Assembly: GCA_012034575.1 (NCBI GenBank)
Contig: JAAUPF010000001.1
Coordinates: forward strand, 1-64,000
Source: Richelia sp. CSU_2_1
GTDB taxonomy: Bacteria > Cyanobacteriota > Cyanobacteriia > Cyanobacteriales > Microcoleaceae
Length of the DNA stretch: 64,000 nucleotides
Reading direction: 5' to 3'
A model generated the notes under the pieces. That model searched no databases, was not told where the DNA came from, and saw nothing but the letters and a program-made list of their open reading frames with translations. The first letter of the stretch is position 1. The number at the start of each line of letters is the position of its first letter. Shown here one piece after another: positions 12,187 to 53,510 of the stretch. The position numbers and the translations under genes were made by a program.

Positions 12187-12283
12187 GGGTTGACTATCTC
12201 CGATCGGTGTTTGTATTAATTTTCCGAGTCAGGTATAATACAAGCGATAACTTGCCTCTATTTTATCTCAAACTCCGACAACT

Positions 12284-12390
12284 ATCAACTATCAACTGTC
12301 AACTGTCAACTGTCAACTATCAACTATCAACTATCAACTATCAACTGTCAACTATCAACTGTCAACTGTCAACTGTCAACTGTCAACTGT
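12284..12390. repeat. Tandem repeat (CAACTGT/CAACTAT type)
   Basis: About fifteen heptamers of TCAACTG and TCAACTA in a row, ending almost at the 3' end of the giant minus-strand gene. The same unit occurs at 37954-37983, 48486-48514 and 56353-56395. It is a cyanobacterial STRR, not a CRISPR: there are no unique spacers. Confidence 0.9.
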
Positions 12391-15300
12391 TTACCAAGGA
12401 CTGCCAATCATTGTAAAACCAGACCAATAATAGGGATGAGACAAATTCAGATTTTCCGCATCACTCCCTGTCGGTGAAGCCACCGTATTTTCGACAAAGT
12501 TCTGCCCCCGCACTGGAGTAGATTGTGCATTCACCTTTCCTTGAATCATATCAATTTGCGTTTGCCGCAAAGCCTCAGCCTTGATGTTGGCATTCCGCAA
12601 TTGACTGTAAAAATCAGTCATTAATGCTAAAGAACCTTCATCTGAAACGTACCACAAACTTGCTAAAACTGACTTCACCCCCGCTTGCACTGCGAAGCCC
12701 GCAAATCCTAATTCTGCCTTTTCGTCTCCCACGGCTGTGCGGCACGCACTCAATACTAATAACTCGACGGGTGGATCGTTCAAGCCTAACTGTCTCAATT
12801 GGCTCAGCAGCAGTTTGCTATCCCACAATTGGATGTAAGAATCGCTGGGGCCGTCGCGAAATTCTCCGTGAGTGGCTAAGTGAATAATTTGCGGGGCGAT
12901 CGCAGACCGCTGCGATTTCAGGTTTGGGAGGGTAAAAGTTTCGTTGAGGAAGTATTTGCCCGGCCATTCTGCAGTAATATTTTGCAATTCTATTGATACG
13001 CCTGGTAAGGGATCTTTGTCTGAAAAAACTGAGGCTCCCATTGCCAAAACTCGGGCATTTGTCAGGGATTGGTAGCGGGTGTCGGTTAAGGTGATGCTGG
13101 GAATCGTGGAAATACTGTATTGTTCTACGAGAAAGTGCTTGCCGTCGTGCAAAGCCGCCAGCGGCAAAGCTTTGAGTCCGGCATCCAAACTGAACAAAAT
13201 AGTGTCAATTTTTTGATTTTTCAGTTCGGTTTCTAAAGGTGCAATCAGCCACTGATAGAGTTTTTGAGCTGGAGCTAAATAGCTGGTTGTTTTGCGTTTT
13301 CTGGGGTTGGTAATTTCCGATCGCAAGCTGGTGGCTGCTGCCAAAAGTGCTTTGCGGTTTGCTTCGGGAACGGTGCGGTGAATGGTTGCGCCCGTGGCAG
13401 TGACTAAAACTAAATCTAGCTGGTCGGGACGGACGATCGCGTAAATTATAGCCGATCGATTCCCGGTTTTACTTTCTATTGTTCTTAAAGTTTCTCGGAT
13501 ATTTTGCACCGATTGTGGGGATTGCTCTGAATCGAAACCTAAATAATTAGAGTACACATTTTCGGAAAGGATCTCTATTTTGTCCACGGCATTATCGATA
13601 TTGCCTGAGTCGAGACTTTGAGTCGCAGCGGCACGCGATAAAATTATTGGCTCTAAATTATGAGAGGTGGAAATGCCGATATTGCCGCTGGTGCTATCAG
13701 TATAGCTGTTGAAAGCAAGCGCCCTGTTGCTGCTTTCTAGTCTCAATATTTGCCGGGAATTAGGATTAGTCGCATTAGGATTAGTCGCATTAGGATTGGT
13801 CGAATTAGGATTGGTCGAATTAGTATTGGTCGAATTAGTATTGGTCGAAACAGATGGGTTGCGGTTTTCGCGGTTTTCTACGACTAATATTTGTTGGCTG
13901 CCAACTCCACCGCTATTGGGATTGGGGGTTTCAACACCAGCATTTGACGTAATGCTGCTGTTGGCACCAGCGCCATCGGTTTCCGGAGTATTCCCAGATG
14001 GCGCGGAATCGCGATCGACTGTTGGAGGCAGCACATTTGCTGATTCTGCAGCCTCGCTTTGCGGGGTTTGCGCCGGCGGTAGGGGGGGATTTGCGCCTTC
14101 CGGCTGCAGGGTTTCCACCTGTGTTGGTGGGGGATTGACGGCGATCGTCCCCGGCACAGTTTCCACCTGTGGTGGGGGATTGACGACGATCGCCCCCGGC
14201 TGAGGCACCGGCTGCGGTATCGGAGATGGGATCGGCTGCTGCGGATTTGGCACCGGCTGCGGTGTCGGAGATGGAATCGGCTGCTGCGGCGCTGCGGTAA
14301 TTATATTGATATTCCCCACAGTGTAGATGCCGGGGGGTACGGGCACGGCAAAAGTCGGGACGATCGCATTATTGGCGGCACTGGAAATAGCGCCCGCCGT
14401 ACCGTTAATCCCTGCATCGCCGATAACAAAAGGAGTTACGGTACTGCCACCGTGGCGGATGGTAATTGCGCCGCCTTGGGTGGAAATGCTGGCATTGAGC
14501 TTGTTTTGGTTGGTAAAAACCCCTGTCGATCGAAAAAAGTTGCCGGCAGTTACATCGACGCTACCCCCGCTGCCTTCTGTACCTCCCGAGGTGTCGAGCG
14601 ATACCACTCTGATGCTGTTAGGAGTGACGAGAGTGACGCCCCCGCCATTGTTTGCCGTGCCTCGGGAGTCGATCCGCCCGATCGCGATCGCGTTGTTAGC
14701 GCCGGCACTAACATTACCTCCGAAGTTGCCTCTGGTGTTGATATCGCCCGTTGCAATGCTTTCTCCGTTAAGCCTGACTCTACCGCCGTTTCCTGCTGTC
14801 GCACTCGCATCGAGATTGCCCGCCGTCACGCTGCCGCGGGCGGTGAAATCGATGCTAGTTGCTGCTACATTGCCCGAGGCGATCGCGCCTTGGCTGGTGG
14901 CTGTCAAATCGCCCAATCTCGAAATATTGCCGATCGGGCTGTTAAATGCGACCCCGCCCCCACCTGCAATTACTGTTAGGTTGCCGTTGCCGTTTAAAGT
15001 ATTGTTGAAAGTAATTCCGTCACCTGTCAAAACCGTGTTTCTCGCTACGGTAACTGCATCTCCATAAATCTGATTTCCGGCAGTATTGACATTGGCATTA
15101 TTTAATTGCGTTACTCCCCCACCATCGGTTGTCAAATTGGCGGCGCTGACGCCATTATTAAACGCTGTCGTACCGCTGGTATTAGCTGTTAAATCTCGCA
15201 GCGGATTGCCGCTACCGATGGCACCGTTAAAAGTAATGTTTCCCGTTCCCGCATTCACCGTTAAATTGCTGTTACCGCTGACTGTATTGTTGAAGGAAAT

Positions 15301-18300
15301 TTCGCCACCGGTCAAAATCGGATTGTTGGCAATTACCACCGCATCCGAGTAATTTTGACTGCCCGCAGTATTGACATTGCCGTTTAGTTGTGTCGTGCCA
15401 CCAACATTAGTTGTTAAACTCGCCGCGCTGACATTGCTGTTAAATGCTGTTGTCCCGCTGCTGTTAGCTGTTAAATCTCCCAGGGGATTGCTGCCGCCAA
15501 CTGTCCCGCTAAAAGTAATGTTTCCCGTGCCGGAATCTAGAGTTAAATTGCTGCTGCCACCGACAGTATTTCGGAAAGAAATCTCGCTGCCTGTCAAAAT
15601 CGGATTGTTGGCAATTACTACTGCATCTGAGTAATTTTGACTGCCCGCAGTATTGATATTGCCCTTAAGTTGAGTAGTGCCGCCGGCATTAGTTGTCAAA
15701 CTCGCCGCGCTGACATTGCTGTTAAATGCTGTTGTTCCACTGCTGTTAGCTGTCAAATCTCGCAGCGGATTGCTGCCGCCAACTGCACCGCCAAAAGTAA
15801 TATTTCCCGCGCCGGAATTTACAATTAAATTGCTGCTACCATCGAGACTAGAATTGAACGTAATGTTACTGCCTGTCAAAATCGGATTGTTGGCAATTAC
15901 CACCGCATCTGAGTAATTTTGACTGCCCGCAGTATTGATATTACCTCTAAGTTGAGTCGTGCCGCCGGTATTAGTTGTTAAACTCGCGGCGCTGACGCTG
16001 TTAAATGTTGTGGTTCCGCTGGTATTAGCTGTTAAATCTCGCAGCGGATTGTTGCTGCCGACGGCACCGTTAAAAGTAATGTTTCCCGTTCCCGCATTCA
16101 CCGTTAAATTGCTGTTACCGCTGACTGTATCGTTGAAGGAAATTTCGCCCCCCGTCAAAATCAAATTGTTGGCAATTACCACCGCATCTGAGTAACTTTG
16201 ACTGCCCGCAGTATTGACATTGCCCTTAAGTTGAGTAGTGCCGCCAACATTAGTTGTTAAACTCGCGGCGCTGACGCTGTTAAATGTTGTGGTTCCACTG
16301 GTGTTAGCTGTTAAATCTCTCAGCGGATTTCTGTCGCCAACTGCACCGTTAAAAGTAATGTTTCCCGTTCCCGCATTCACCGTTAAATTGCTGTTACCGC
16401 TGACTGTATTGTTGAAGGAAATTTCACCACCTGTTAAAATTGGATTGTTGGCGATCGCTACTGGATCTGAGTAACTTTGACTGCCCGAAGTATTGACATT
16501 GCCTCTAAGTTGAGTAGTGCCGCCGCTATTAGTTGTTAAACTCGCGGCGCTGACGCTATTAAATGCGGTTGTTCCGCTGGTATTAGCTGTTAAATTTCCT
16601 AAGGAAGTGCTGCCGCCGGCGGTGCCACTAAAAGTAATGTCTCCCGTCCCTGCATTCAGTGTCAAATTTTGATTTTCTGCCGTAACGCCGTCGAGGGAAT
16701 TGTTGAAACTGATGCTGCCGCTGCTGTTGCTGCCAAAGGTATCGATCGCGATCGATCGAGCTAAACGAGTATTGCCGTTAAAATTGAGATTGCTGCCGCT
16801 ACCAGTTGCCGCCGAAGTGTTGATATTGCCACTGAGTGTAATATTTCTACTGCCAGCATCGATCGATAGTGTTCCGGCATTAGCAGTGCTATTGTTGGCG
16901 GCGGTACTGGTATCGATCGCCCCTAAATTAATCTCTGTTCGAGCAGTTAAATTAATCGGTCCGCCGTTATTATTCGTGCTAGAAGTTTTGAGCGTGCTGC
17001 CGCTGGTATCGATGCTGCCGCCCGTACTTTCGATCGCGATCGATCGGCCCGGATTGGTGATATTTCCCGTAAAAATATTGCCCCCAGCGGACAAATTAAT
17101 TGTAGCATTGTCGGCACCGGTAATAGTAAAACTTCGAGTGTCGATCGAGCCGGAAGTTGCGGGCGATAGAACTGTTACCGGATCTTTAAAAGTGACATTT
17201 CCTGCCAAAGAAATTGTACTGCTGCTGTCGCTTCTGCCGAGGACGATCGAGCTAAATCCATTTTGCAAAGCAGCCAAATCTGTCGCACTTAAATCGAGAT
17301 TTGTCGTGCCGCTATTCGCCGCACCTCCCAGGGTAATATTGCGATCGGCTGCAAAGGGCTGCAAGACAATTATTCCCGTACCGATAACTCGATTTGTTCC
17401 CCCAGTCAGATCGATTTCATTTCCCGTTAAAGTTATATTTCCGTATCGGACGCTTGCCGATGCAGTCGGTAGCAAATCGGTTTGTAAGGTATTGATGCTG
17501 TTGGCAGACAAAACATTAGCGGCAGTCAATGCAATATCTCCCGGAGCGCCTTGACTGACAGTACCAAATGAGGTAGCATCTACCCTACCGCTGACCGTAA
17601 CATTGCCTCCCGCGATCGCAGAAATAGTGCCTGCATTTCCCGCAGTACCGGTGCCGAAAACATAAGCACCAGAATGCAGGTTTGCTAATTCGATATTGCC
17701 GTTAGTAGCTGTTGCTAGAAAGTTCCCTGCATTGCCAGCATTTCCACTGGCTGCGCGGGTTGAAGAAAACACGTTGTTTGCCAGAATATTGCCGTTAGTA
17801 GTAGCAAGATTAATGGCACCTGCGCTGCCTGCATTGCCAGTAGCAGTATCGGTGAAAGCTGAGATATCGGCGGCCGTAATTCCTGCTGCAGAGTTGAGAT
17901 TTACAGTGCCTGCATTGCCGTTAATCCGATTAGATTGAGCCTCGATCGAACCTGCAGCGATCGTACCTGTATTGCTGGAAATTGTCACGCCGCCCGCGTT
18001 ACCCGACGCGCCGCTACCGATAGCAGCCGCGCTGACTGTTTGCGCCCTGACGCTGCCGCTAGCTTTGATGCTGATATCGTTACCGCTAGCAGCATTCCGG
18101 GAAGAAGCATCGACATTACCCGTTGCTGTAATTTTACCTGCCGTACTTTCGATCGCAATGCTGCCGGAAGTGCCTGTGTTTTCCGCCCGACTTTGCACGG
18201 TATTGACTGCAATATCGCCGGCTGAAGTTATCGCAATATTGCCGCCGCCGCTAGCGGAAATCGTATCAATTGTTCCTGCCGAGGTGTCGATCGAACCGTT

Positions 18301-39468: not shown

Positions 39469-39774
39469 CTAAGGCGTTTCATCAAATCGAGTATTAAAAC
39501 TGCCGTACTTGAACCAATATTGTTTTAATTCGTGGTGGGGAGTGTGCAAGCTAGCTTTAGCTTGATAGAGCAGAATTTTTCGGTGAGTTCCGATCCAAAC
39601 TCGCTTGATAGGTTCGACAGAAATCAACGTTCCTCCTAGAGTTGTCACGCAGTTTTCAAATCGCTCAACTGCTGAATAATCCAGCGTTTCAAAAACGAAA
39701 AAGTTTCCCGAACAAATCAAATGGCGACTGCGAATCCAAGCTTGCATTTTTTGACGAGCAACAGGAGGGAGCAT
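39469..39774 (-). CDS. cpeR: Phycoerythrin operon activator CpeR
   Basis: A 101-residue protein: MLPPVARQKMQAWIRSRHLI, CSGNFFVFETLDYSAVERFE, TLGGTLISVEPIKRVWIG, and ASLHTPHHELKQYWFKYGSF. This matches CpeR, required for cpeBA transcription in Fremyella and Nostoc. Downstream of the cpeC-D-E linker genes as in cpeCDESTR/cpeC-cpcG2-cpeR1 operons, so CcaR-driven transcription of cpeC would also raise CpeR and then cpeBA (a feed-forward arrangement known from group II chromatic acclimaters). The DNA-binding mode is not evident. Confidence 0.88.
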   Translation of the reverse strand: MLPPVARQKMQAWIRSRHLICSGNFFVFETLDYSAVERFENCVTTLGGTLISVEPIKRVWIGTHRKILLYQAKASLHTPHHELKQYWFKYGSFNTRFDETP

Positions 39775-39938
39775 TGTGCTTGGTGTAATTCAAAATTGAA
39801 AATTTTTGAGCGCGCTATCTCAAAAAGTTACCTAGAAAACTAGAGCGAATTATCCATAATTCGCTCTAGAATAGTAGGAGATCGTCAAGTTAGGAGAGAT
39901 TGATTAATTATCTCATAATTTGAGTCTAAAAGTTCAAA

Positions 39939-40700
39939 CTAACTCTCGGTAATACTGAGAATTTTGCCTCCCGTTTTTTGAATATTTTGAATCGTCTGGG
40001 ATAGTTGAGCGTAGCCTACCTGGTAAGTTGTGTTACTTTGTTTGGCCATAGGAGTCACTGCTCCTTTAACTACTGCAATGCGAAACCGCTTATTGGTAGG
40101 ACTCGAAGCATTACATGGCGCAAAAGCAACCTTAATTTTCTGGGGAAGATTTGCAGCTATGGCAGAAATTAATTGAGCTTGGTTGCTGCTATCGCTAGTG
40201 GCGAATCCACCCAGTAAAGAAACAGTCTGGTTGAAAACATTATTTTTTACCCCAGTTTGGCTGCGGATACAGCGAGCGTAGGGGACGGTATCTTCGCCAA
40301 AATTCAGGGTGTAATCATCACTATCGATGTAGGAATTGATTTCCGCTGCGTAGCCTTTTTGGCTGTAAATTTGAACGTGCCGAGCAATTTCCGCTTGGTC
40401 TAGCGGCGCGCGACCGAGCAAGTGCTTGCAGTTTAATTCGATGAACCGGTAAGGAGGGTTTCCTTCAAAAAAGAGGGATTGATAAAGGTCGGATTGAGCT
40501 ACCATTCTGACAAAGCCCCGAACCGTAATATCGCCATTGCGCAATTGGGATTCTGCACTCTCTAAACGCTGTCCCGATAGCACGTGAGCGTTGCCTAACA
40601 CCTGTTTGTAAGCGGCGCGAATGACCACCTGTAATTCCTCTTCCGTTGCCCCAGATCGCAGTTCTACTGGGTCACTGATGAATCCTGCTGCTAAAGTCAT
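39939..40700 (-). CDS. cpeE: Phycoerythrin-associated rod linker CpeE
   Basis: A 253-residue rod linker. An N-terminal PBS linker domain (about 10-150: ELRSGATEEELQVVIRAAYK, YRFIELNCKHLLGRAPLDQA) is followed by a C-terminal CpcD-like domain (about 200-253: RFRIAVVKGAVTP to GGKILSITES). It caps or joins phycoerythrin hexamers. Third linker of the cpeC-D-E set; it is separated from cpeD by 254 bases, unlike the tight cpeC-cpeD spacing. Naming CpeE versus CpeD is by order. Confidence 0.85.
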   Translation of the reverse strand: MTLAAGFISDPVELRSGATEEELQVVIRAAYKQVLGNAHVLSGQRLESAESQLRNGDITVRGFVRMVAQSDLYQSLFFEGNPPYRFIELNCKHLLGRAPLDQAEIARHVQIYSQKGYAAEINSYIDSDDYTLNFGEDTVPYARCIRSQTGVKNNVFNQTVSLLGGFATSDSSNQAQLISAIAANLPQKIKVAFAPCNASSPTNKRFRIAVVKGAVTPMAKQSNTTYQVGYAQLSQTIQNIQKTGGKILSITES

Positions 40701-40954
40701 TGATTTTGTCCTTGAGTTAATAAAATTTTGACGTTTCTTAAAGCTCGATCGATTCCAAAACAGCTAACTAAATTGTCACGCAGTTTTTTGGCGCTAATTT
40801 CACATTCTTGGTGTTGAAATTCTTTGTGTCTAACGTCGTCAAACAAGTAGAGAGACTCCGTTATTTGGGCGATGGGAATCCGATCCAATAACAACCCAAA
40901 ATCCCCAAAAACCAGACTAAAAAGCCACCTCTACCCGTTCGACGATCGAGTTTT

Positions 40955-41722
40955 TTAAGCTACTTCAGTGATGCTGACAATCGTGCCGCCAGCCCGGTGA
41001 ATCCGCTGAATTTGCGGCGTCATGCGATCGCCCGGAACGATATACTCAGTGGTGCTGATCCGGCGCGGGCTGTCAAATTTCGAGCCTTTGACCAGAATTT
41101 TGAAGGTTTTTTCCGTCGCATCCTTGTAAGCTCCCAGCCGTCCGCCAGTAACGGGAACAGACACTTTCGTCGCACTATTAGTAGCGACATCGGCAACTAA
41201 GCGAGCCGCCGTAAAAGCACTGTCCACCCCGGCATAGCCCTGATAAAGGGAGAGAGTGCGGTTGTAGCCGACATTCTTCTGTCCCACCTGCGTTTTCGCC
41301 CCTTGATAGTAAGGCACGGTATTTTCGCCGAATTTTGCCTGATACTCCTCGCTATCCAAGTAAGAATCAATCTCTGCCTCATAGCCCCGCCCGACACACA
41401 GGCAAATGTGCTGGGAAAGTTCGGCTTGGTCGCTAGGAGCTCGTCCCAACAAGTGTTTGAAGTTGAGTTCGATAAAACGATAGGGCGCGCAGGATTCAAA
41501 ATAGCGGCCGCGATAGAACTCGGATTTAGCCACAGCGCGGACAAATTCCCGTACAGTTAGATCGCCGTTAGCTAACTGAGATTCTGCCGTAGTTAAGCGT
41601 TCGCTTTCCATAACGTGAGGGTTCCCCAAGACTTGCTTGTAAACCGCCCGAATGACTGCCGCCACTTCGTCAGGACTTCTCGATGCGCGAAGTTCCACAG
41701 GAGCATCTAAAACTACACTCAT
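40955..41722 (-). CDS. cpeD: Phycoerythrin-associated rod linker CpeD
   Basis: A 255-residue rod linker with PBS linker domain (VELRASRSPDEVAAVIRAVY; YRFIELNFKHLLGRAPSDQA) and C-terminal CpcD-like domain (EKTFKILVKGSKF to GGTIVSITEVA). Close paralogue of CpeE and CpeC. It starts 28 bases after cpeC. Names are assigned by order in the known cpeCDE layout. Confidence 0.87.
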   Translation of the reverse strand: MSVVLDAPVELRASRSPDEVAAVIRAVYKQVLGNPHVMESERLTTAESQLANGDLTVREFVRAVAKSEFYRGRYFESCAPYRFIELNFKHLLGRAPSDQAELSQHICLCVGRGYEAEIDSYLDSEEYQAKFGENTVPYYQGAKTQVGQKNVGYNRTLSLYQGYAGVDSAFTAARLVADVATNSATKVSVPVTGGRLGAYKDATEKTFKILVKGSKFDSPRRISTTEYIVPGDRMTPQIQRIHRAGGTIVSITEVA

Positions 41723-41750
41723 TTACGTTCTCCTACAAAAAATTTTGCAA

Positions 41751-42626
41751 CTAAACAGGGGTAATGCTGGCAATCACGCCACCATCTCGATGAATCCGTT
41801 GGTATTCCTGCGACAGCTTGCTAAAGGGCACAAAATAAACTTGGTTGCTGCGGCGGAACTTGGAAACCCGGCTTACCTTACCCGGAGAACCATAGCCAGT
41901 GACTTCAATGCGATAGACTTTGCCCTCTTCGTCAGCACCAGCACCCAGGCGCGTCCGCGCGCCAGCCGATGTATCTTGGAAAGACCAGCCATCTCCCACA
42001 CTTCCGCCAGAAGGAGGAATCACCGGCAGGGGAATCTCCTGGATGACGTACTTGTTGAGTACGGGCGTTTTTCCTGAAAGGCTGCCTTTGAGGTCGCTGC
42101 TGGAAGAACCCCGCGCCAGGGCGAACAGGTGAGTGAAGCCCACCATATTTTTGCCCGGTTGCGTCTTGTAACCCCGGTAGTAGGGAACGATATTCTCTCC
42201 GTAGGCGTTCTGATATTCGTCGCTGTCGAGGTAGGAGTCAATTTCTGCCTCGAACCCTTGGGTGTCCAAGATAGTGCTGTGGGAGCGCATCTCTTCTAAC
42301 CCGTCGGGGGCGCGACCGAGAAAGTGTTTGTAGTTGAGTTCGATGAAACGGTAGCGAGGGCAGGTTTCAAAGAAACGAGAGCGGTAGAGTTCGGATTTAG
42401 CCACAGCACGCACGAACTCACGGACGCTCAATTCTCCCCGTTTGAACTGGGATTCGGGAACAACAGCGCGCTCGCTCTCCATGACGTAGGCGTTGCCCAA
42501 AATTTGTCGGTAGACAGCACGGATGAAGGTTTCTACCTCTTCTTCTGTGCGTCCTGGTGTCAGTTCCAACGGCGGGGTTTCTTCAAATAAAGCGACTCCG
42601 AGTTGGGAGGCAGGTCCAAAGGTCAT
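41751..42626 (-). CDS. cpeC: Phycoerythrin-associated rod linker CpeC
   Basis: A 291-residue rod linker, the longest of the three. PBS linker domain: PLELTPGRTEEEVETFIRAV, YRFIELNYKHFLGRAPDGLE. A Ser/Gly/Pro-rich spacer with SSSSDLKGSLSGKTPVLNKY precedes the C-terminal CpcD-like domain (VYRIEVTGYGSPGKV to VIASITPV). It is first in the minus-strand cpeC-D-E-R-S-T series. The eight-unit 11-bp repeat array begins 71 bases upstream of its ATG. Confidence 0.9.
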   Translation of the reverse strand: MTFGPASQLGVALFEETPPLELTPGRTEEEVETFIRAVYRQILGNAYVMESERAVVPESQFKRGELSVREFVRAVAKSELYRSRFFETCPRYRFIELNYKHFLGRAPDGLEEMRSHSTILDTQGFEAEIDSYLDSDEYQNAYGENIVPYYRGYKTQPGKNMVGFTHLFALARGSSSSDLKGSLSGKTPVLNKYVIQEIPLPVIPPSGGSVGDGWSFQDTSAGARTRLGAGADEEGKVYRIEVTGYGSPGKVSRVSKFRRSNQVYFVPFSKLSQEYQRIHRDGGVIASITPV

Positions 42627-42696
42627 AGGAAAAGAATCTCCAACTTAGTTTAAAAAACTAAACAGCATTAACAAATTACTTACCAGTAAATAAACT
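42627..42696 (-). promoter_or_regulatory. cpeC leader and promoter-proximal region
   Basis: Seventy bases between the repeat array and cpeC. On the minus strand it reads from a CCAGT-TTATTT-ACTGG palindrome through an AT-rich stretch to TTGGAG, the likely ribosome-binding site, 11 bases before the ATG. The cpeC promoter elements should lie at or just downstream of the array; exact -10/-35 positions are not clear. Confidence 0.5.
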
Positions 42697-42784
42697 GGAA
42701 AGAAATCGGAAAGAAATCGGAAAGAAATCGGTAAAAAACCGGAAAGAAATCGGTAAAAAACCGAAAAAAAACCGGAAAAATACT
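42697..42784 (-). promoter_or_regulatory. Eight-unit 11-bp repeat array, CcaR G-box-like
   Basis: Eight contiguous 11-bp units, plus strand: GGAAAGAAATC three times, GGTAAAAAACC, GGAAAGAAATC, GGTAAAAAACC, GAAAAAAAACC, GGAAAAATACT. Read toward cpeC the core is GATTTCTTTCC, so CTTTCCGATTTCTTTCC occurs in direct repeat. As I recall, the G-box bound by CcaR upstream of cpcG2/cpeC is a direct repeat of CTTTNCNATTT. The 11-bp period keeps sites on one face of the helix, as usual for OmpR-type regulators. The array lies between cpeC and ccaR. Confidence 0.82.
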
Positions 42785-43052
42785 AATTCCAGACAGGCAA
42801 GAATTAAGAATAAATATCCAATCTAACGAGACACAAAATTAAATTTAGAAATATAACTTTACAAAGCGATCCCTAAGGTTTGGAAACTCCGGGCATATTA
42901 GATAAAATGCCGATCGAGGTCAGTGAATGAGGCTGTCGTCAATGCAGGTTACGCCATGCCCGAGATCTCAACGCGGCAAAGAATATTTTGGTGGCAGGGC
43001 TTGCCGTATGATTCAGTAGTGTCCCTAAGATCTTCCTTGTCGCCGAAGAAAG

Positions 43053-43730
43053 ATGAAGATTCTTTTAGTTGAAGATGATAGCCGCTTGGCTGAAACCTTA
43101 GCGGAAGCCCTAACCGACCAATTATATGTCGTTGATACGGCTTTGGAGGCAGAATCGGCTTTAGAATATATCAAGGCGAGCGATTATGACCTGCTGCTGC
43201 TAGATGTCATGTTGCCAGAACTTGATGGCATCAGTTTTTGCTCTTTGTTACGATCGCGGGGCTATCAAATGCCGATTCTGATGGTAACGGCCCGCGATAC
43301 TGTCAGCGATAAAATTTCTGGACTGGATGCTGGTGCAGACGATTACATTGTCAAACCGGTCGATTTAGGGGAGTTATTTGCTCGGATTCGCGCCTTGTTC
43401 CGCCGCAGCAGCAAGTCCTCGCCACCTGTCCTAGAGTGGGGTACCTTGCGCCTCGACCCCAGTACCTGCGAAGTCAGCTACGCCGAAACATCTATCTACC
43501 TCACTTCCAAGGAATACTGCATCCTAGAGTTAATCCTGCGCTACGGCCGCCGCCTAATCAGTCGCCGCGATATCATCCAACACATCTGGCCGACTGAAGA
43601 GGCGGTAGAAGAAGATACGGTCAAAGTCCACGTAAGAAGCTTGCGCCAGAAGCTGAAAGCAGCAGGTGCGCCGGAAAATTTGATTGAAACGGTTCATGGT
43701 AGGGGCTACCGCCTCAGGGAAGCGAATTAA
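43053..43730 (+). CDS. ccaR: OmpR-family response regulator, CcaR-like
   Basis: A 225-residue response regulator with receiver (KILLVEDDSRLAETLAEALT; phosphoacceptor Asp in LLLLDVMLPELDG about residue 53; KPVDLGELFARIRAL) and winged-helix DNA-binding domain (YLTSKEYCILELILRYGRRL; VKVHVRSLRQKLKAAGAP; ETVHGRGYRL). Position between cpeC and a green/red-type cyanobacteriochrome kinase identifies it as the likely CcaR, which activates cpeC-type operons in green light. The G-box-like array upstream of cpeC is its expected target. It diverges from cpeC. Confidence 0.85.
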   Translation: MKILLVEDDSRLAETLAEALTDQLYVVDTALEAESALEYIKASDYDLLLLDVMLPELDGISFCSLLRSRGYQMPILMVTARDTVSDKISGLDAGADDYIVKPVDLGELFARIRALFRRSSKSSPPVLEWGTLRLDPSTCEVSYAETSIYLTSKEYCILELILRYGRRLISRRDIIQHIWPTEEAVEEDTVKVHVRSLRQKLKAAGAPENLIETVHGRGYRLREAN

Positions 43731-43906
43731 CACCTGCAGTTTTTCCGCCGGCGATCGACCGTATTTATGATATTATTGATAGCTATTTGATGTAGCAATT
43801 CTCTCTTAAGTGAGGTACAAGTTCGATCGATTACCGATTACCAATTACCAATTACCAACCCCCGCGATCGACCTCATATTACTGAAAAAGGCTATATCTC
43901 CCCTCG

Positions 43907-46655
43907 TCAGATCTTCGGTAGCAGGATAGTGACGGTCGTTCCTCTTCCTACTTCACTGGCAATCTCGATCGTACCCCCGTGCAAGTCAACGCACTTTTTG
44001 ACCACCACTAAACCCAGTCCCGTTCCCGGCAAGTGACGCACATTTTTGCCGCGAGAGAAAGGCTCAAAGAGTTGTTTTTGGTCTTCTGTAGGAATCCCCA
44101 AACCCCGATCGCAAATCATTAGTTGAACGCTTTCTTTCTCAAAGGTGACAGAACATTGAATCTGACCGCCTCCAGATGAATATTTGATCGCATTAGAAAG
44201 AAGATTAGCTAAAATAGAACGCAATAACTTTTCATCAACACAAGCACCAGTATTTTGACCGTTATTTTGAGCGTGACAGGCAAAATTTAGAGTATGCCTC
44301 GCGCCCGCACTTAGTTGCATCTCTTCAACAAAATGACTGCAAAATTTTTCGAGATCGAGCCATTGCGGATTGAACTCCAACTTGCCAGTTTCAGCGCGAT
44401 TAATTGTCAAAATATCGTCTAAAAGTTGCACCATATTTTTTACTGAATCTTGAATGCGGCGCAGGTTTCGATCGCGCTTTTCGGGATTTGCCCAAGCTCC
44501 AGGAGAGGAATCTAGCAATTGAGCCGCCGCCAGCACGGTACTCAGAGGCGTCCGAAATTCATGGGAAACCATCGAAAAGAATCGGGTTTTTAAAGTCCTC
44601 AATTCTTGTTCGCGCTCTAAGGCCAGCCGCACTTCATCTAGCCTCTTCCGTTCGGTGATATCCCGCGAGTTAATAAAATTTTGGAGATAAGTCGCCGTCA
44701 ACTAAGGGGGGGCCAGTCTCAGCAAACTTTAGTGCTTTTGGTAGCGCTTCAAAAGTGCGCCACTGTCCGTCTCGATCGCGGCGGCGGAATTCAATGGGGC
44801 TAATGTCTTCCGATCGAGATCTGGCTTGGCTGAGGATCGGACTGATATTGGCTAGGTCATCCGGGTGGATGTAGGTAAAAAAATTCTGACCGATTAACTC
44901 TTGGGGTGAGTAACCCAAGACTTTCTCAACGGAGGGATTTTCGTAGTGAATTGTGCCGTCGGGAGCCAGGATAGTAATGATATCCAAAGCATTTTCGATC
45001 AGGGAACGGAAGCGTTCTTCACTCTGACGCAAGGCTTCTTCCGTGCGCTTGCGCTCGGTAATGTCTCGCTGCACGGAAATCCAGTGAGTGTAGCGGCCTT
45101 GCTTGTCCGCTACTGGGACGACGCTGAGCTCTACCCAAAACTCGGAGCCGTCTTTGTGGTAGTTGATAACTTCTACGGTGGCGGATTCCCAGCGACAGAG
45201 GGCTTCTCGCACGCGATCGAGTGCCGCGCGATCGGTTTTCGGCCCCTGGAGGAGGCGGGGCGTCTTTCCCAACACTTCTTCCAGGCTGTAGCCTGTCATG
45301 GTGGTAAATGCCTGGTTGACGTAGAGGATGCGCGGATCGGGAGGCTCGACGGGTTGGGCTTCGGTGATAATGACAGCATCGTTGGTGTTGACAACCACAG
45401 ATTGCAGCAGGCGTACCTGTTCGGCTTGGCGCTTCTGTTCGGTGATGTCAGCCACGACAGCTACCAGCCCGCCAATCCGATCCTCACTATCCATCAGAGG
45501 GGCCGCCGAGAAAACGATGTCAATGGGAGAACCGTCTTTTTTGTGCCGGCGCACTTCTAAACTCGGAGGTGCGATTCCTTCTAAAATGCTCCGCCAGATG
45601 GCTTGATAGTCTGCCTGTTCCTCGGTAATGACGGGATTGGGGCGATCTGTGACTTCTGCTTCCGTCCAACCAAACATCTGTTCGGCGGCGGGGTTCCAGA
45701 TTTTGACCCGCCCTTGCAAGTCAAGGGTAAAAATGGCGCGAGGAGAGGCGGCAATCAAGGAAAGTAGGGTTTGATTGGTGTGGCGTAAGGCTTCGTTGGT
45801 TTTTGCCAATTCTTCGGTGCGCTGCTTTACCCGAACTTCTAATTCGGCATTGAGTTGTCGCAGTTGCTCGTGGAGCTCTGACTGTTGGATGGCAATCGCT
45901 ACCTGAGTTGCCAGTTGCTTCATCAATTCGATCTCCAAGGGTTGCCACTGTCGGGGGGCGCGGCAGTGGTGGGCAATCAGTAACCCCCACAGGTGGGGCT
46001 TGGAGGTGTGGGAAGTGTCGGCGGTTCTCTCCTCTTGACGCGATGTTTTCCCCTCTGCCACTTCTGTATCGGCCGCTTCTGTGTTAGGACGATCGAGTTG
46101 CCTTAATTCTTGGATGATGGGGACGACTAATTTCGCCCTGACGCCAAATTCAGAGACGAATTCTACCAGACAAGGCTCTACATCTTCCTGGGTGATGTCG
46201 GCGATCGCCCCGATTTTCCCCTCAGCGTAAGCTTGGTGGTATTCTGGGGGAAAGACTTCTGGCGGAAAAGTTTTCCCTAAAATTGCTGGATGTTCGGGCA
46301 AAACGGCTTCTGTAATCGCACTTCCCGTCCCATCTCCCCAAATGCGATAGATCAACACTCTATCTGTTAGGAGAAATTGCCTGACATCGGAGACTGTAGT
46401 AGCGAGAACTTCCTCCAAGTTCAAAGATTGGCGGATGTGTTGGGCAATTTGGTTGACCAATCGTTCCCGTTCTGTTTGCTGTCCCAAATTCAATTCAGCT
46501 TGGCGGAGTCGGGAGTTGTCCTGTTGTCGCCAGTAATAAATTGCTAGGAAAGCTATACTAAGTAAGCCAAGACTGAGACTCAGAAAACCGAAAATCGGTA
46601 ATGTATTCACGTTGAAATTTTCAGCGATCGCGATCGTAAATTTAGAGTAGTTCAC
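43907..46655 (-). CDS. ccaS: CcaS-type cyanobacteriochrome histidine kinase, frameshifted
   Basis: Membrane histidine kinase: TM near residues 17-43; GAF about 68-262; three PAS domains (about 290-650); then H box [12 protein letters not shown] and ATPase [11 protein letters not shown]. In the [24 protein letters not shown] has Cys162, Leu163 directly after it and Lys175 thirteen residues on. In RcaE/CcaS, green/red protochromic receptors, the residues Leu249 and Lys261 flank the bilin Cys in this way. A 36-residue insert (near 185-220) precedes [10 protein letters not shown]. The frame breaks at the AAAATTTT of 44675-44682; removing one base restores [15 protein letters not shown]. It overlaps pebB by four bases. 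Three PAS rather than the usual two is unusual. Confidence 0.82.
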
Positions 46656-47392
46656 CTTTTGGCTAATTCACGTTCTAAATCGAACAGGAATCCGTGAATG
46701 TACTCCTCCGTCCACTCTGGGCCGTACAGCCGTGCAAACATTCCCCGCGCCGGATCTTTAGCCGCCCTATAGCCAATGTACCGCAGTTGTGACTGTTCGA
46801 TCGCTTCTAAGTGTTGGCTATCCGTAACGGGTTCAGCTCGATCGACAAAATCTAAATAAGCGCTTAAATACTCCTTAAATGCCTCAAATACTTGTGTCTG
46901 AACCACTTCGGTTTTTTGAGGGCGAGTCCACAGGAAAGCAGGAGAAAAGAAGGGTTTCGCTTCTTCAGGAAAATCGCCTCCCCAAGGCAAATCTTGCTGG
47001 TAAGATTGATAAATAGGTAAGATGGGGTCGCTGTATTTTTCTTGGTAAGCAGCATCGTGAAATAGCGGCTGCATATCCAAAGCAATCAGGTGTCCCCCCG
47101 GTAAGGTAACTAAATCCGCTCCAAAAAAAGGCAAATCGTAGTTTAACTCGGGAAAAATTACAAAGTTGAGAACTTGTAGGGAATTTCCTCCTTGAACGTG
47201 AGCGGCGCGAATTTGCCTCAGTTTGGGAGATTTAAAACCGTGGCTGGTGGTGATAACGGTTTCTTCCCGCTTTCCTTTCCCTGTCGTGGCTTCTTTGCGC
47301 TCAAAACCTTCGGGAATCGGATATAGACTCAGGGCGAGCCGCTCTTTGAGTAAGGCGAGGGCATGGTCTAAAAATGGTTGGTAGAGCGACAT
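46652..47392 (-). CDS. pebB: Phycoerythrobilin:ferredoxin oxidoreductase
   Basis: A 246-residue ferredoxin-dependent bilin reductase (HY2 family): [56 protein letters not shown], and ending [18 protein letters not shown]. PebB reduces 15,16-dihydrobiliverdin to phycoerythrobilin. Order behind pebA and the [13 protein letters not shown] block support PebB over PcyA or HY2. It overlaps the following kinase gene by four bases, so light sensing and pigment synthesis appear co-transcribed. It is separated from pebA by 264 bases holding two copies of a 102-bp repeat. Confidence 0.87.
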
Positions 47393-47439
47393 GATCTGGT
47401 AGTCTTTTCTGAAAAAAGTTTGCTAACTAAAACTTAAAC

Positions 47440-47641
47440 TATAGCGATCGTAAATTATTTGTGAAGTTCTTGCTCCCGGACCTTACTAAGGGGAGGGCTG
47501 GGGTGGGGTTGAAAATTTACGATTCATTTAGGATCGCTATATAGCAATCCTAAATCATTTGTGAAGTTCTTGCTTTCGGACCTTACTAAGGGGAGGGTTG
47601 GGGTGGGGTAAAAAATTTACGACTCATTTAAAATCGCTATA
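47440..47641. mobile_element. Two tandem MITE-like repeats sharing a TA between pebA and pebB
   Basis: Two 102-bp copies (47440-47541 and 47540-47641) in the same direction share the middle TA. Each begins TATAGCGATC or TATAGCAATCC and ends with the inverse ATCGCTATA. Interiors contain CTTACTAAGGGGAGGG and GGGTGGGGT and would fold. They match the element at 37849-37952. The shared TA suggests TA-targeted insertion into a pre-existing copy. Confidence 0.8.
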
Positions 47642-47656
47642 TTTGCCCGATAATTC

Positions 47657-48382
47657 CTAAGTACGGACAGCTACGGGAACGGCATCTTCAAACAAAAATT
47701 CATGCAGGAATTTTTCCGACCATTCATGACCGAAATAGCTGCTAAATAGCCCCGATGCTGGATCTCGTTCGGCACTATATCGATCGTAATCTTTCTGAGC
47801 CTTGACAATGCGCTCTATTGCTTCTGGCTCGGTTGCAGGCTCGGCTTTTTCTAACATTTGCCAGTACAACTGAATATATTCTTGATACGCAGGAAAGAGT
47901 CTGCTGACAACCGTTTCAGCATCAGTTTTTGCAAACAGCAGGTAGGGTGAAAAATACTGATTTGCATCGTAAAACTTCATCGGTAAATCTTGCGCCAACT
48001 CGTTATATTTATCTCTAATTTCTCGCATTGGCTCGATGTATTTTTCTAAATACTCTGGCTCCCGAAACAACGGTTGGAAATCTAAAACTACTAAAATTTT
48101 CTTTTTGCCAAAGGCCAAAAAATCAATTCCCAGTAAGGGCAAGTCGTAGTTATGACTCGGGTAAATGACACTATTGAAAATCTGGGCAGTTTCTCCAGCA
48201 TTGATGTAAGTGTAACGAATTTTTCGCAACTGGGGACATTCATAGCACCAGCTTTCGATCATGGCAGGATTTTTCCCCCGCTGGCTGACTTGGAATTCCA
48301 ATTCTGGAAGAATCGGGCGACTCCGCAACTCGAAGCGACGGAACAGTTCTTGTTCTAGGTGTTGGAGAAAAGGCTGAAACAT
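47657..48382 (-). CDS. pebA: 15,16-dihydrobiliverdin:ferredoxin oxidoreductase
   Basis: A 241-residue HY2-family bilin reductase: MFQPFLQHLEQELFRRFELR, FNSVIYPSHNYDLPLLGIDF, LVVLDFQPLFREPEYLEK, ending FGHEWSEKFLHEFLFED. PebA reduces biliverdin IXalpha to 15,16-dihydrobiliverdin, handed to PebB. It lies first in the pebA-pebB-ccaS series. The source of biliverdin (heme oxygenase) is not in this window. Confidence 0.87.
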   Translation of the reverse strand: MFQPFLQHLEQELFRRFELRSRPILPELEFQVSQRGKNPAMIESWCYECPQLRKIRYTYINAGETAQIFNSVIYPSHNYDLPLLGIDFLAFGKKKILVVLDFQPLFREPEYLEKYIEPMREIRDKYNELAQDLPMKFYDANQYFSPYLLFAKTDAETVVSRLFPAYQEYIQLYWQMLEKAEPATEPEAIERIVKAQKDYDRYSAERDPASGLFSSYFGHEWSEKFLHEFLFEDAVPVAVRT

Positions 48383-48601: not shown

Positions 48602-50205
48602 CTAACCTTTAAAATCGAACTCCGCACACTGCTGCAAAAACCGCAGCGGAATATCCGGCCTCGCCCCCCAGTGCAAATGCAAATAAGCAGCATGGACTCG
48701 ATAAACTCCCCAACCTTCACCAACTGCCTCAACTTCTCCCCGTTTCCCGTACCTCCAACTGCGATAAACTGGATCGATCGGCTCTACACTTAAGTGCGAT
48801 CGGTGAAATTCATGTCCCCACACTTCATCCCCTGCTGCTAACACCGAACTTTCCCTCTCAACAACTGCTTCTCGGTATCCCAGCGTCAAACGCTTTCCCA
48901 TCACCGCAGCCGCCGGCAAAACACCAACCCCCGACCAAGAATTGCCCTCGAAATCTACTATAGAATCGCACAAATACATCAAACCGCCGCACTCCGCATA
49001 CACCGGCATTCCCGCAACAATAGCTTTTCTTACCGCCTCTCGAATTACAACATTACCACTCAATTCCTTGGCAAAAACTTCGGGAAAACCGCCACCAAAA
49101 TACATCCCCTGCACGCTGTTAGGAAAAACCGCATCATCCAGCGGACTCCAAAATACTAACTCGCCACCTAAATCGCACAGCAAATCCAGATTATCCTGAT
49201 AGTAAAAATTAAAAGCTCGATCGCGCGCTACCGCAATTCGCACCCCAATTTTTTCCCCCAAATTGTTGACAAATTTATTTTTTTTAGTTATCATTTCATT
49301 AGGGAGACTGTGCCTACCCAAAAGTTGCTCACACCCCTCACCCTCCCCCTGTTGCTCACGCCCCTCATTTACCCGATCTGCATTTACCCGATCGAAATTT
49401 ACCGGATCGACATCTACCTGATTTGTACTAGCAGCAAGCAAAGGCAAAAGTCGTTCCCAGTCAAAACAAGCAGCAGCCAGATCGGCCAACTTATCGATCG
49501 CAGCCTCCAGATGCGGCAACTCTTCAGCAGGAATCAAGCCCAAATGCCGATCGGGAATACTAACAGCATCATCCCTGCGCAACACCCCTAAAATGGGCAA
49601 ATTCAGCGGTTCCAAAGCATCTTGAAGCAACTCCAAATGCCGATCGCTAGCCACCCGATTCAGCACCAAACCAGCACAATTAAGACTGCGATTAAAAGAG
49701 CGAAAACCGTGAGCGATCGCGGCCACAGAACCAGAAAGCCTGCTGCAATCTAGCACTAACAACACTGGTAAATTCAACAAAACAGCAACATGGGCCGTAG
49801 AAGTAAAAGCAATAGAATAATCTTCTTTTTTCCTACATTCTTCCCACCAATTACATCAGTTTCAAAACCAGCGATCGAACTTCCTTCTTCCCTCTTCCTT
49901 CTCCCTTCTTCCTTCTCCCAAGAAACCCCATCAAATAAACCCATTACCCCTTCAACTAAAGCAAAATTAACATCTTGAACGTGACGGTAAAAACACTTTT
50001 GCACGTAAGATTCAGAAGTTAACAAAGGGTCTAAATTCCGGCAAGGGCGGCCGGTCACAAAAGCATGAAACATCGGATCGATGTAATCAGGACCGACCTT
50101 AAAAGATTGAACTTTCAGACCTCGGCGCATCAAAAAAGCCAAAAGAGCGATCGTAACAGTAGTCTTTCCCGACCCGCTGCGATCGCCCGCAATTACTAAA
50201 GCCAT
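48602..50205 (-). CDS. cobB: Cobyrinate a,c-diamide synthase, frameshifted, with repeat-derived inserts
   Basis: CobB/CbiA amidates cobyrinate in corrinoid synthesis. The first frame (50205-49774) has P-loop DRSGSGKTTVT, FKVGPDYIDPMFH and EGVMGLFDGV; the second has NLPVLLVLDCSRLSGSVAAI and a class I glutamine amidotransferase with Cys in VYAECGGLMYLC and GWGVYRVHAAYLHLHW. Restoring one T in the T6 run at 49826-49831 joins them (KKEDYSIAFTSTAHVAVLLN). Two inserts are read from repeats: WEKEEGRRKREEGSS from the polypyrimidine STRR (49881-49920) and PVNFDRVNADRVNEGREQ from ATTTACCCGATC repeats (49370-49420). Position downstream of opcA is on the same strand but not obviously linked. Confidence 0.85.
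49881..49920. repeat. STRR inside cobB coding frame
   Basis: CTTCCTTCTTCCCTCTTCCT-type repeats identical to those in intergenic gaps occur in the cobB frame, encoding a Lys/Glu/Arg-rich loop. This is a dispersed repeat that has expanded or inserted in coding DNA without breaking the frame by itself. Confidence 0.8.
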
Positions 50206-51892: not shown

Positions 51893-51978
51893 CACCTTCC
51901 TTCTGCCTTCTGCCTTCTGCCTTCTGCCTTCTGCCTTCTGCCTTCTGCCTTCTGCCTTCTGCCTTCTTCCTTCTTCCT
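51893..51978. repeat. STRR (CTTCTGC type) at the 3' end of zwf
   Basis: About ten CTTCTGC heptamers followed by CTTCTTC, ending four bases before the zwf stop codon complement. It is one of four different heptamer families present in this window. Confidence 0.85.
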
Positions 51979-51981
51979 TCC

Positions 51982-53510
51982 CTACAGTCTCCGCCACTTG
52001 CGCCCGTCTCTGTTAATCAGCAGTTCGGCTTCTGCAGGTTCCCAGGTACCGGCTTCATATTTCGGAACTAATTCCTGTTCCATGGGAGCTTCCCAAGCCA
52101 GCAGCGCCGGCGTCACCACCCGCCAAGCTTCCTCTACTTCATCAGAACGGGTGAACAAAGTTTGGTCGCCCAACATACAGTCAATTAACAGGCGATCGTA
52201 AGCATCCGAAGATGTCACCCCAAACGAAGAACCGTAACTGAAATCCATATCCACCGTCCGCGTCCGCAAATCCGGTCCCGGCATTTTCGCCTCAAACCTT
52301 AGGGAAATTCCTTCATTCGGATGCACGCGCATCGTCAAAACGTTCGGGGCAGTTTGTTGGGCGGCGGACTGAAAAATCAGCAGCGGCACTTCGCGGAATT
52401 GAATCGCAATTTCGCTCACTTTTTTCGGCAACCGCTTCCCAGTGCGCAGGTAAAAAGGCACGCCCTGCCAGCGCCAGTTGTCGATCGCGAACTTCATCGC
52501 CACGTAAGTTGGCGTCGTCGAGTTGGGAGCAACCCCCGGTTCTTGGTGATAACCGGGCACGGGTTTGCCTTTCATCCACCCTGCGGAATACTGACCCCGG
52601 ATCGCGGAATTTTCCAAGTTTTGCAAGTCAGCCAAGCGAGTTGCTTGCAGCACCTTCATTTTTTCCGTGCGGATGCTATCGGCATCCAGGGAGTTGGGCG
52701 GTTCCATCGCCGTCAGACAGAAAATCTGCATCAAGTGGTTTTGCAGCATATCCCGCAGCGCCCCTGACGATTCGTAATAACCGGCCCTGTCTTCCACGCC
52801 CACAGTTTCTGCCACCGTAATTTGTACGTGATCGACAAATTGGCGGTTCCACAACGGCTCAAAAATCGCGTTGGCAAACCGGAACACCATCAAGTTTTGA
52901 ACGGTTTCTTTACCTAAATAGTGGTCGATCCGGTAAACTTGCTGTTCTTGACAAACCTGCTGCACGACGCGGTTGAGAGCTTTGGCCGAACTCAAGTCGC
53001 GACCGAAAGGTTTCTCAATTACCAAGCGGTGTTTTACCGGATCGGCGAGCAGTTGGGCCGCCCCGAGTTGCCGAATTGCTTCTGGAAAAAGTTCGGAGAA
53101 ACCGAGAGATAAAATATGTGGTTGCCGCGGGTTCTCCTTTCTTGGTCAAGTTCGGCTAAGAAAGCTTTGAGTTTTTGATAGCTTTCTGGGTTGTCAATAT
53201 CGCCCGGACAATAGAACAAACCCCGAGCGAAATCTTCCCACAATTCTTCATTTTGAATACCGCCACCGAATTTCTCGACGCCTTCTCGCATTTGTTCTCG
53301 GAAGTAATCGTGACTCCAAGGGCGGCGCGCTACTCCGACTACAGTAACTTCCGGCGGCAAGCGCCGATCGAGCCTCATTTGATAAATTGCAGGTACGAGT
53401 TTCCGCTGCGTCAAGTCGCCGGAAGCTCCAAAAATTACCAGAATTTGCGGTTCCGGCATTCTTTCTTTACGCAAACCTACCCGTAAGGGATTTTCCAGTA
53501 GTGCTACCAT
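51982..53510 (-). CDS. zwf: Glucose-6-phosphate dehydrogenase, frameshifted
   Basis: Zwf oxidises glucose 6-phosphate to 6-phosphogluconolactone. First frame (53510-53034): [20 protein letters not shown] (NADP-binding), [26 protein letters not shown]. Second frame: [34 protein letters not shown] (catalytic His), [20 protein letters not shown]. Restoring one A in the A5 run at 53086-53090 yields [16 protein letters not shown] and joins both to about 508 residues. It starts with TAATG overlap with a 106-codon gene. Cyanobacterial zwf is needed for dark metabolism, so true loss is unlikely. Confidence 0.87.

Follow-up and report, generated by a model that had tools for sequence, protein, structure and literature searches.

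The window, by which is meant the whole stretch of 64,000 nucleotides analysed, comes from a draft genome of Richelia sp. CSU_2_1 that is 86% complete with 6.6% contamination. It contains phycobilisome linker genes and, next to them, genes for a CcaS/CcaR-type two-component system. The main features of this locus are:

39939-40700 and 40955-41722: further linker genes beyond the cpeC-like gene
41751-42626, minus strand: cpeC-like phycobilisome rod linker gene (PF00427 and PF01383), presumed target of the array described below
42880-42908, plus strand: candidate ccaR promoter, TTGGAA-17-TAAAAT, a consensus match only
43053-43730, plus strand: ccaR, an OmpR/PhoB-family response regulator (PF00072 and PF00486)
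43907-46655, minus strand: ccaS, with the architecture GAF-PAS-PAS-PAS-HisKA-HATPase, in two frames, broken at about 44670-44701

The linker at 41751-42626 matched no CpeC-specific model among the protein family models, and the name cpeC is one that we assume from its gene company. Linkers 83-88% identical to it lie beside the box in genomes G193, G137, G173, G215 and G247. Beyond ccaS are the ferredoxin-dependent bilin reductases PebB and PebA. Three promoter-like sites were found in 42600-43070, against a mean of 0.7 in shuffles, a count that is no evidence of function.

Within the segment that joins the PAS domains to the kinase, ccaS has 2 bases fewer at an A4/T4 run than its counterparts in G173, G137 and G193, which breaks the frame. 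GAF, PAS and kinase domains are all detectable despite the break. Two housekeeping genes nearby are also interrupted. cobB (48602-50205) is divided between two ORFs that overlap but differ in frame, with a heptamer array inside (49880-49916); in three genus-mates its parts lie in one frame, as judged by coordinates. zwf is split into ORFs 51982-53025 and 53034-53510; the former matches the zwf model from its position 143 onward, and the gene start was located by eye in the latter. Because these three broken genes lie within 10 kb, the ccaS frameshift is likelier to be a draft error than loss of the switch, and the pattern suggests that all three breaks are indel errors in the draft. The ccaS of G193 carries an insertion of about 51 bp close to the site of the Richelia frameshift.

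Between the cpeC-like gene and ccaR, direct reading of the letters gives eight contiguous 11-bp units at 42697-42784. On the plus strand from 42697 these are GGAAAGAAATC three times, GGTAAAAAACC, GGAAAGAAATC, GGTAAAAAACC, GAAAAAAAACC and, as the divergent last unit up to 42784, GGAAAAATACT. The unit tally of the first-pass annotation (four, three and one divergent) is thus borne out; its description of two alternating unit types holds for the middle of the array and not for the rest. Read on the minus strand, in the sense of cpeC, the array consists of eight CTTTCCGATTT-like units at 42692-42779, and this is the more informative of the two readings. In 5' to 3' order on the cpeC strand the units are TTTTCCGGTTT TTTTTCGGTTT TTTACCGATTT CTTTCCGGTTT TTTACCGATTT CTTTCCGATTT CTTTCCGATTT CTTTCCAGTTT. 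The parts of the array are:

42681-42691, minus strand: degenerate ninth unit ATTTACTGGTA, where the usual box has its conserved fourth unit (TTTACT in the 34-locus consensus)
42692-42779, minus strand: eight in-phase CcaR-box units, each of at least 3 bits on a profile built from other genomes
42703-42724, minus strand: canonical two-unit G-box CTTTCCGATTTCTTTCCGATTT, sharing 21 of 22 bases with the Synechocystis G-box in the text available from PMC8256508
42725-42779, minus strand: five extra units, the extension proper, on the ccaR-proximal side (profile trained without the five close loci)

The sequence and its register are established. Tandem Repeats Finder reports period 11 at 42697-42778 (score 101) and period 22 at 42688-42780 (score 123); the longer period outscores the shorter because two unit types are mixed. 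The array matches itself at 0.77 at offset 11 and 0.78 at offset 22, falling to about 0.5 one base off these offsets and about 0.3 at offsets not adjoining them. When both strands of the 64 kb were scanned with a profile trained without the Richelia genome and without G193, one chain of eight units was found, together with 250 chains of one and none of two to seven. When the 426-bp intergenic region was shuffled 2000 times by dinucleotides, the maximum was two units and 19.5 bits, against 94.6 bits observed. With up to three mismatches allowed, the plus-strand two-unit string occurs in its own genome (7.27 Mb, 86% complete) solely at the array, at five overlapping places. The ninth unit scores -2.6 on the profile trained without the five close loci, and is therefore not a unit by that measure. 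One terminator-like hairpin was found in the array, against a mean of 0.5 in shuffles, and was disregarded. A short inverted repeat, CCAGTTTATTTACTGG, lies at 42683-42698, on the side of the array core that faces the start of cpeC; its counterparts are CCAGTTTCTGTGCTGG in G173, CCAGTTTCTGTACTGG in G215 and CCAGTTTCTTAACTGG in G193.

Runs of five to eight T recur in the ccaR-proximal half of the array. Phased A-tracts bend DNA, and oligo-T spaced at 11 bp might in principle aid RNA polymerase or the divergent ccaR promoter independently of CcaR. The distribution of letters makes such a role very unlikely: in the cpeC-proximal units the T runs are just three letters long, C6 is among the invariant letters, and in other CcaR loci the box is conserved without long T runs.

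The resemblance that matters is to the binding site of CcaR. In PMC8256508, an engineering paper, the Synechocystis G-box is CTTTCCGATTTCTTTACGATTT, two abutting 11-bp units. At 42703-42724 the Richelia array has CTTTCCGATTT twice, abutting and perfect, and the identical 22-mer is present in G193, G215, G173 and G137. Both units are of the CTTTNCNATTT type, the CcaR G-box consensus given in the first-pass annotation. The identification proposed there is supported: the array fits by sequence, position and gene company, and its regulator falls in a box-carrying clade. Judged from sequence, the array is quite probably an extended, putative CcaR operator.

The clade was defined from a tree of 69 regulators from the fetched loci, in which the Richelia protein belongs to a group of 39 with support 99/98. 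A two-unit G-box pair lies within 1500 bp upstream of 36 of the 39 clade proteins, against one of 30 outside the clade. Both the clade and its clade-wide box are established. The members lacking a box are L034, for which the upstream sequence is just 279 bp long, and L033 and L025, where no two-unit box passes the cut used; the one box scored outside, at L039, is probably there by chance. The regulator is predicted to be a CcaR orthologue; it owes its name to the box and the gene company, the tree containing no named CcaR reference. Second copies of known loci (L118, L136, L143, L166-L169 and L123-L126) and the distant L179 were omitted from the tree, from which G247 and G343 are also absent. 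Nine of the 80 loci of a named-genome scan (L036-L043 and L115) served as distant rows in the profile scan and the tree. The remaining 71 were dropped: the query peptides were generic receiver-domain motifs, and these loci are mostly unrelated regulators.

The array could instead be the site of another regulator of the same family, such as an RppA-like paralogue encoded elsewhere in the genome. Of the NCBIfam models, RppA does fit the window protein best, although its 213 bits fall short of the 250-bit cut-off, and other members of the CcaR clade score similarly. The neighbourhood of a 60% identical paralogue at C175 includes pairs such as CTTTCCGAGTTCTTTACTTTTT as well as genes for an RppB-like kinase and an Fe(II) dioxygenase. 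This attribution is nevertheless very improbable. The box tracks the CcaR clade and not the paralogues; its neighbours are ccaR on one side and a linker gene on the other, with a GAF-PAS kinase next to them; and genome-wide pair matches outside the array number nine, against eight for a reversed-pattern control. The RppA-like locus on C175 (L206, L211) also has pairs such as CTTTCCGAGTT CTTTACTTTTT between genes, which genome-wide occur at the control level.

The usual form of the box was derived from 34 CcaR loci, without the Richelia locus and G193, aligned on the two strong units. The consensus (capitals at least 70%, small letters at least 50%) reads CTTTCCGATTT CTTTAC.aTTT ccT.ACCc.TT TctTTACtT.t, then TGttA. 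Second locus copies (L118, L136, L143, L166-L169) were left out of this alignment. A separate genome nearly identical to L015, G076 (L017), was omitted from alignment, tree and upstream-unit scoring; on the first profile it has three units, none of them upstream of unit 1. The usual CcaR box thus comprises about four in-phase units of falling strength, two strong and two weaker, ahead of an extended -10-like motif. This modifies the earlier picture of a two-copy box multiplied about fourfold. The box is enlarged, but the usual box already has four units, and the enlargement consists of five further units added toward ccaR. In Richelia the TGttA-like hexamer lies at a distance of 54 from the start of the core; for the usual box a manual count puts this distance at 51. 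Promoter geometry is thus kept only approximately, and a fixed -10 spacing fails as proof of function.

At the Richelia locus the five extra units score 4.4, 16.7, 4.4, 3.2 and 9.6 bits on the profile trained without the five close loci. Extra units of at least 0 bits directly upstream of unit 1 are present at all five close loci and at none of 31 other CcaR loci; off site, 0.5% of 7540 11-mers reach that threshold. The number of contiguous extra units is five in Richelia, three in G193 (with a fourth beyond one weak unit), two in G137, one in G173 and one in G215, the last of only 0.4 bits. G247 makes a sixth close locus, with a single extra unit that scores 2.0 bits on the first profile. In the next relative, G343, whose CcaR is 74% identical, there is no extra unit. 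Overall, the extension occurs at 6/6 loci of the close subclade and 0/32 others, and is established as specific to that subclade. The subclade is defined as six genomes among those searched: at E <= 1e-104 a search of 388 genomes of the order finds these and, as a seventh, G343, and the same search of 386 phylum-wide genomes returned the Richelia genome itself as its sole match. The first-pass annotation had asked whether the repeat is kept in relatives or is peculiar to this assembly, and how its copy number compares across genomes. The repeat is kept, with extra in-phase units at every close-subclade locus; copy number is less constant, varying within the subclade and falling to no extra unit at the 32 more distant loci. 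The loci compared form a series of three, four, five and eight in-phase units on one promoter type, the Richelia array being the longest contiguous one.

Among the closest parallels is G193 (L007), whose CcaR is 87% and linker 88% identical to those of Richelia and which shares the order linker-ccaR-ccaS-pebB-pebA. Its cpeC-ccaR intergenic region has a distal block of seven units (at least 2.5 bits on the first profile) ending in the same two perfect units and, separated from it by about 100 bp, a degenerate block of four units nearer cpeC, whereas the Richelia units are all contiguous. Because ccaR dS between the two is about 0.86, long arrays have either persisted or arisen twice.

Candidates for similar arrays were also sought with a loose four-unit pattern, which matched 32 of 388 genomes; its reversed control matches as well, and the pattern served for candidate-finding only. 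Many matches are low-complexity T runs or unrelated arrays, such as the TTGGCATTTTA array of G193, and the G183 array, between a LysR-type gene and a glycosyltransferase-family gene, is likewise unrelated. Four in-phase CTTCCCGATTT-like units lie just downstream of CcaR-like paralogues at 2922-2975 of L174 (G081) and 1587-1640 of L149 (G039). These in-phase four-unit arrays occur in G081/G011 and G039/G062, with paralogues 63-66% identical; ORFs were examined for G081 and G039.

Extra units could have accumulated by neutral slippage of an ordinary G-box, without measurable effect. Short tandem repeats abound in the genome, relatives differ in unit number as they also would under drift, and two units suffice for a PHO box. 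Rows of at least five copies found by Tandem Repeats Finder in a 296-kb sample include 62 of heptamers, ten heptamer rows lying in the 64-kb window (for example 12279-12390 and 51899-51980). Rows with an 11-bp period are rare, however: the same sample contains one, a low-complexity GAAGGAAGGAA run. The substitutions are uneven as well. The 15 extra units of the six loci show 38 departures from CTTTCCGATTT, distributed by position as 13, 1, 1, 5, 1, 5, 2, 8, 0, 1 and 1. They mostly avoid positions 2, 3, 5 and 9-11 and largely spare the TTT end, in units that are related by descent and were chosen for box likeness. None of 20000 random placements was as uneven, and the same holds after removal of duplicate units. 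This test treats kin units as independent, uses units selected in a way that favours conserved positions, and omits the four proximal units of G193; it may serve as a guide, not as a probability. From the uneven departures and the rarity of 11-bp arrays amid many heptamer arrays, neutral slippage is the less likely explanation, and the contrast between 6/6 extended close loci and 0/32 others also tells against it. We consider it improbable, though well short of negligible. Two larger repeats in the window are a 279-bp unit present 5.5 times at 15128-16658 (Tandem Repeats Finder) and a 100-bp tandem duplication with 89% matches at 47440-47642, between pebB and pebA.

The setting of the array suggests how Richelia came by it. 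The contig is unlikely to be contamination, since OpcA (TIGR00534), encoded beside the module, is 87-92% identical in eight of nine genus-mates sampled (the ninth missed the cut). The module's ccaR itself is found in one of 61 family genomes at E <= 1e-108. The five genus-mates fetched with a CcaR-clade protein are 66-67% identical to Richelia in that protein. Three of these (G179, G001 and G092) have an ordinary two-unit box, G209 has none within 1500 bp, and the sequence of G166 ends early. Gene order differs from Richelia in the three genus-mates examined. The order linker-ccaR-ccaS-pebB recurs in G193, G173 and G137, which belong to three other families; pebA is next after pebB in G193 and G173, and lies beyond the fetched stretch in G137. 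On the simplest account, the linker-ccaR-ccaS-pebBA module (39469-48382) looks to have been acquired horizontally next to cobB-opcA-zwf.

Operators built from many short repeats are familiar in the OmpR/PhoB family. PMC4415409 describes regulators of this family as recognizing 11-nt repeats in head-to-tail arrangement; PhoB oligomerizes hierarchically and cooperatively on the PHO boxes, which consist of direct repeats of 11 nt, and 'complex' PHO operators vary in repeat number. Cyanobacterial SphR is described with at least three such 11-nt repeats in the excerpted text of PMC1906773. With eight in-phase 11-nt direct repeats and a regulator containing a Trans_reg_C domain (PF00486), the Richelia array fits this 'complex' type. 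It resembles the multi-repeat PHO operators in kind, and by analogy may be occupied by several dimers.

From this analogy we infer CcaR binding, occupancy of the extra units and an effect on the response. CcaR is the DNA-binding half of the green/red light system CcaS/CcaR. (i) Phosphorylated CcaR would be expected on the 11-bp units head to tail, with two units per dimer. (ii) The segment 42681-42724, two perfect units and the half-conserved ones below them, would represent the ancestral box activating the cpeC operon. (iii) Duplication toward ccaR would have produced five further units of mixed strength, 42725-42779, which were then kept, probably for cooperative loading of more CcaR dimers from the strong core outward. 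(iv) The first dimer would occupy 42703-42724, and later dimers the weaker units toward ccaR. (v) As an outcome, cpeC might be switched on at a lower level of CcaR-phosphate, or more steeply, or CcaR might be held near the divergent ccaR promoter. Counting against this picture, three of the extra units are weak, with 4.4, 4.4 and 3.2 bits, and in two of these, both TTTACCGATTT, TTTAC is shifted by one base from the canonical register. The suggestion in the first-pass annotation that dimers line up on one helix face holds approximately: an 11-bp unit drifts by about 17 degrees per unit relative to about 10.5 bp per turn.

A broader reading is that the repeat number of a CcaR operator is an evolvable dial. 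The box of this subclade would grow by tandem duplication toward ccaR in transferred phycoerythrin modules, a chain of CcaR dimers would spread from the strong core, and copy number and the mixture of strong and weak units would set the threshold and steepness of green-light induction, perhaps also coupling the cpeC and ccaR promoters. We put this forward tentatively, as a possibility that would have to overcome rather adverse odds. CcaS/CcaR is a widely used optogenetic switch (PMC9614035, in the part available), and the available sections of PMC8256508, PMC6629627 and PMC12461855 describe one G-box per promoter. Among the open-licence papers listed by searches on CcaR or its consensus string, none mentions a multi-unit natural G-box in its title or abstract. 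The natural series of three, four, five and eight units offers ready parts for probing operator length against gain and threshold, whereby tuning of chromatic acclimation by operator length becomes testable.

Among the closest known systems is the CcaR G-box of the cpcG2 promoter in Synechocystis sp. PCC 6803. It likewise consists of abutting 11-bp direct repeats upstream of a phycobilisome linker gene, with a core alike at 21 of 22 bases. It differs in having two units and cpcG2 as target, whereas Richelia has eight units and a cpeC-type linker as target, and the Richelia ccaS is frameshifted in the present assembly. The 34 CcaR loci of other families share with Richelia the same register, strong units 1-2, weaker units 3-4 and TGttA downstream, but outside the close subclade have no in-phase unit directly upstream of unit 1 (0/31), where Richelia has five. 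The PHO boxes of PhoB, PhoP and SphR, so far as the excerpted sources describe them, differ in recognition sequence and signal (phosphate), but like the array are 11-nt head-to-tail direct repeats, read by regulators of the same family and built of two, three or more units.
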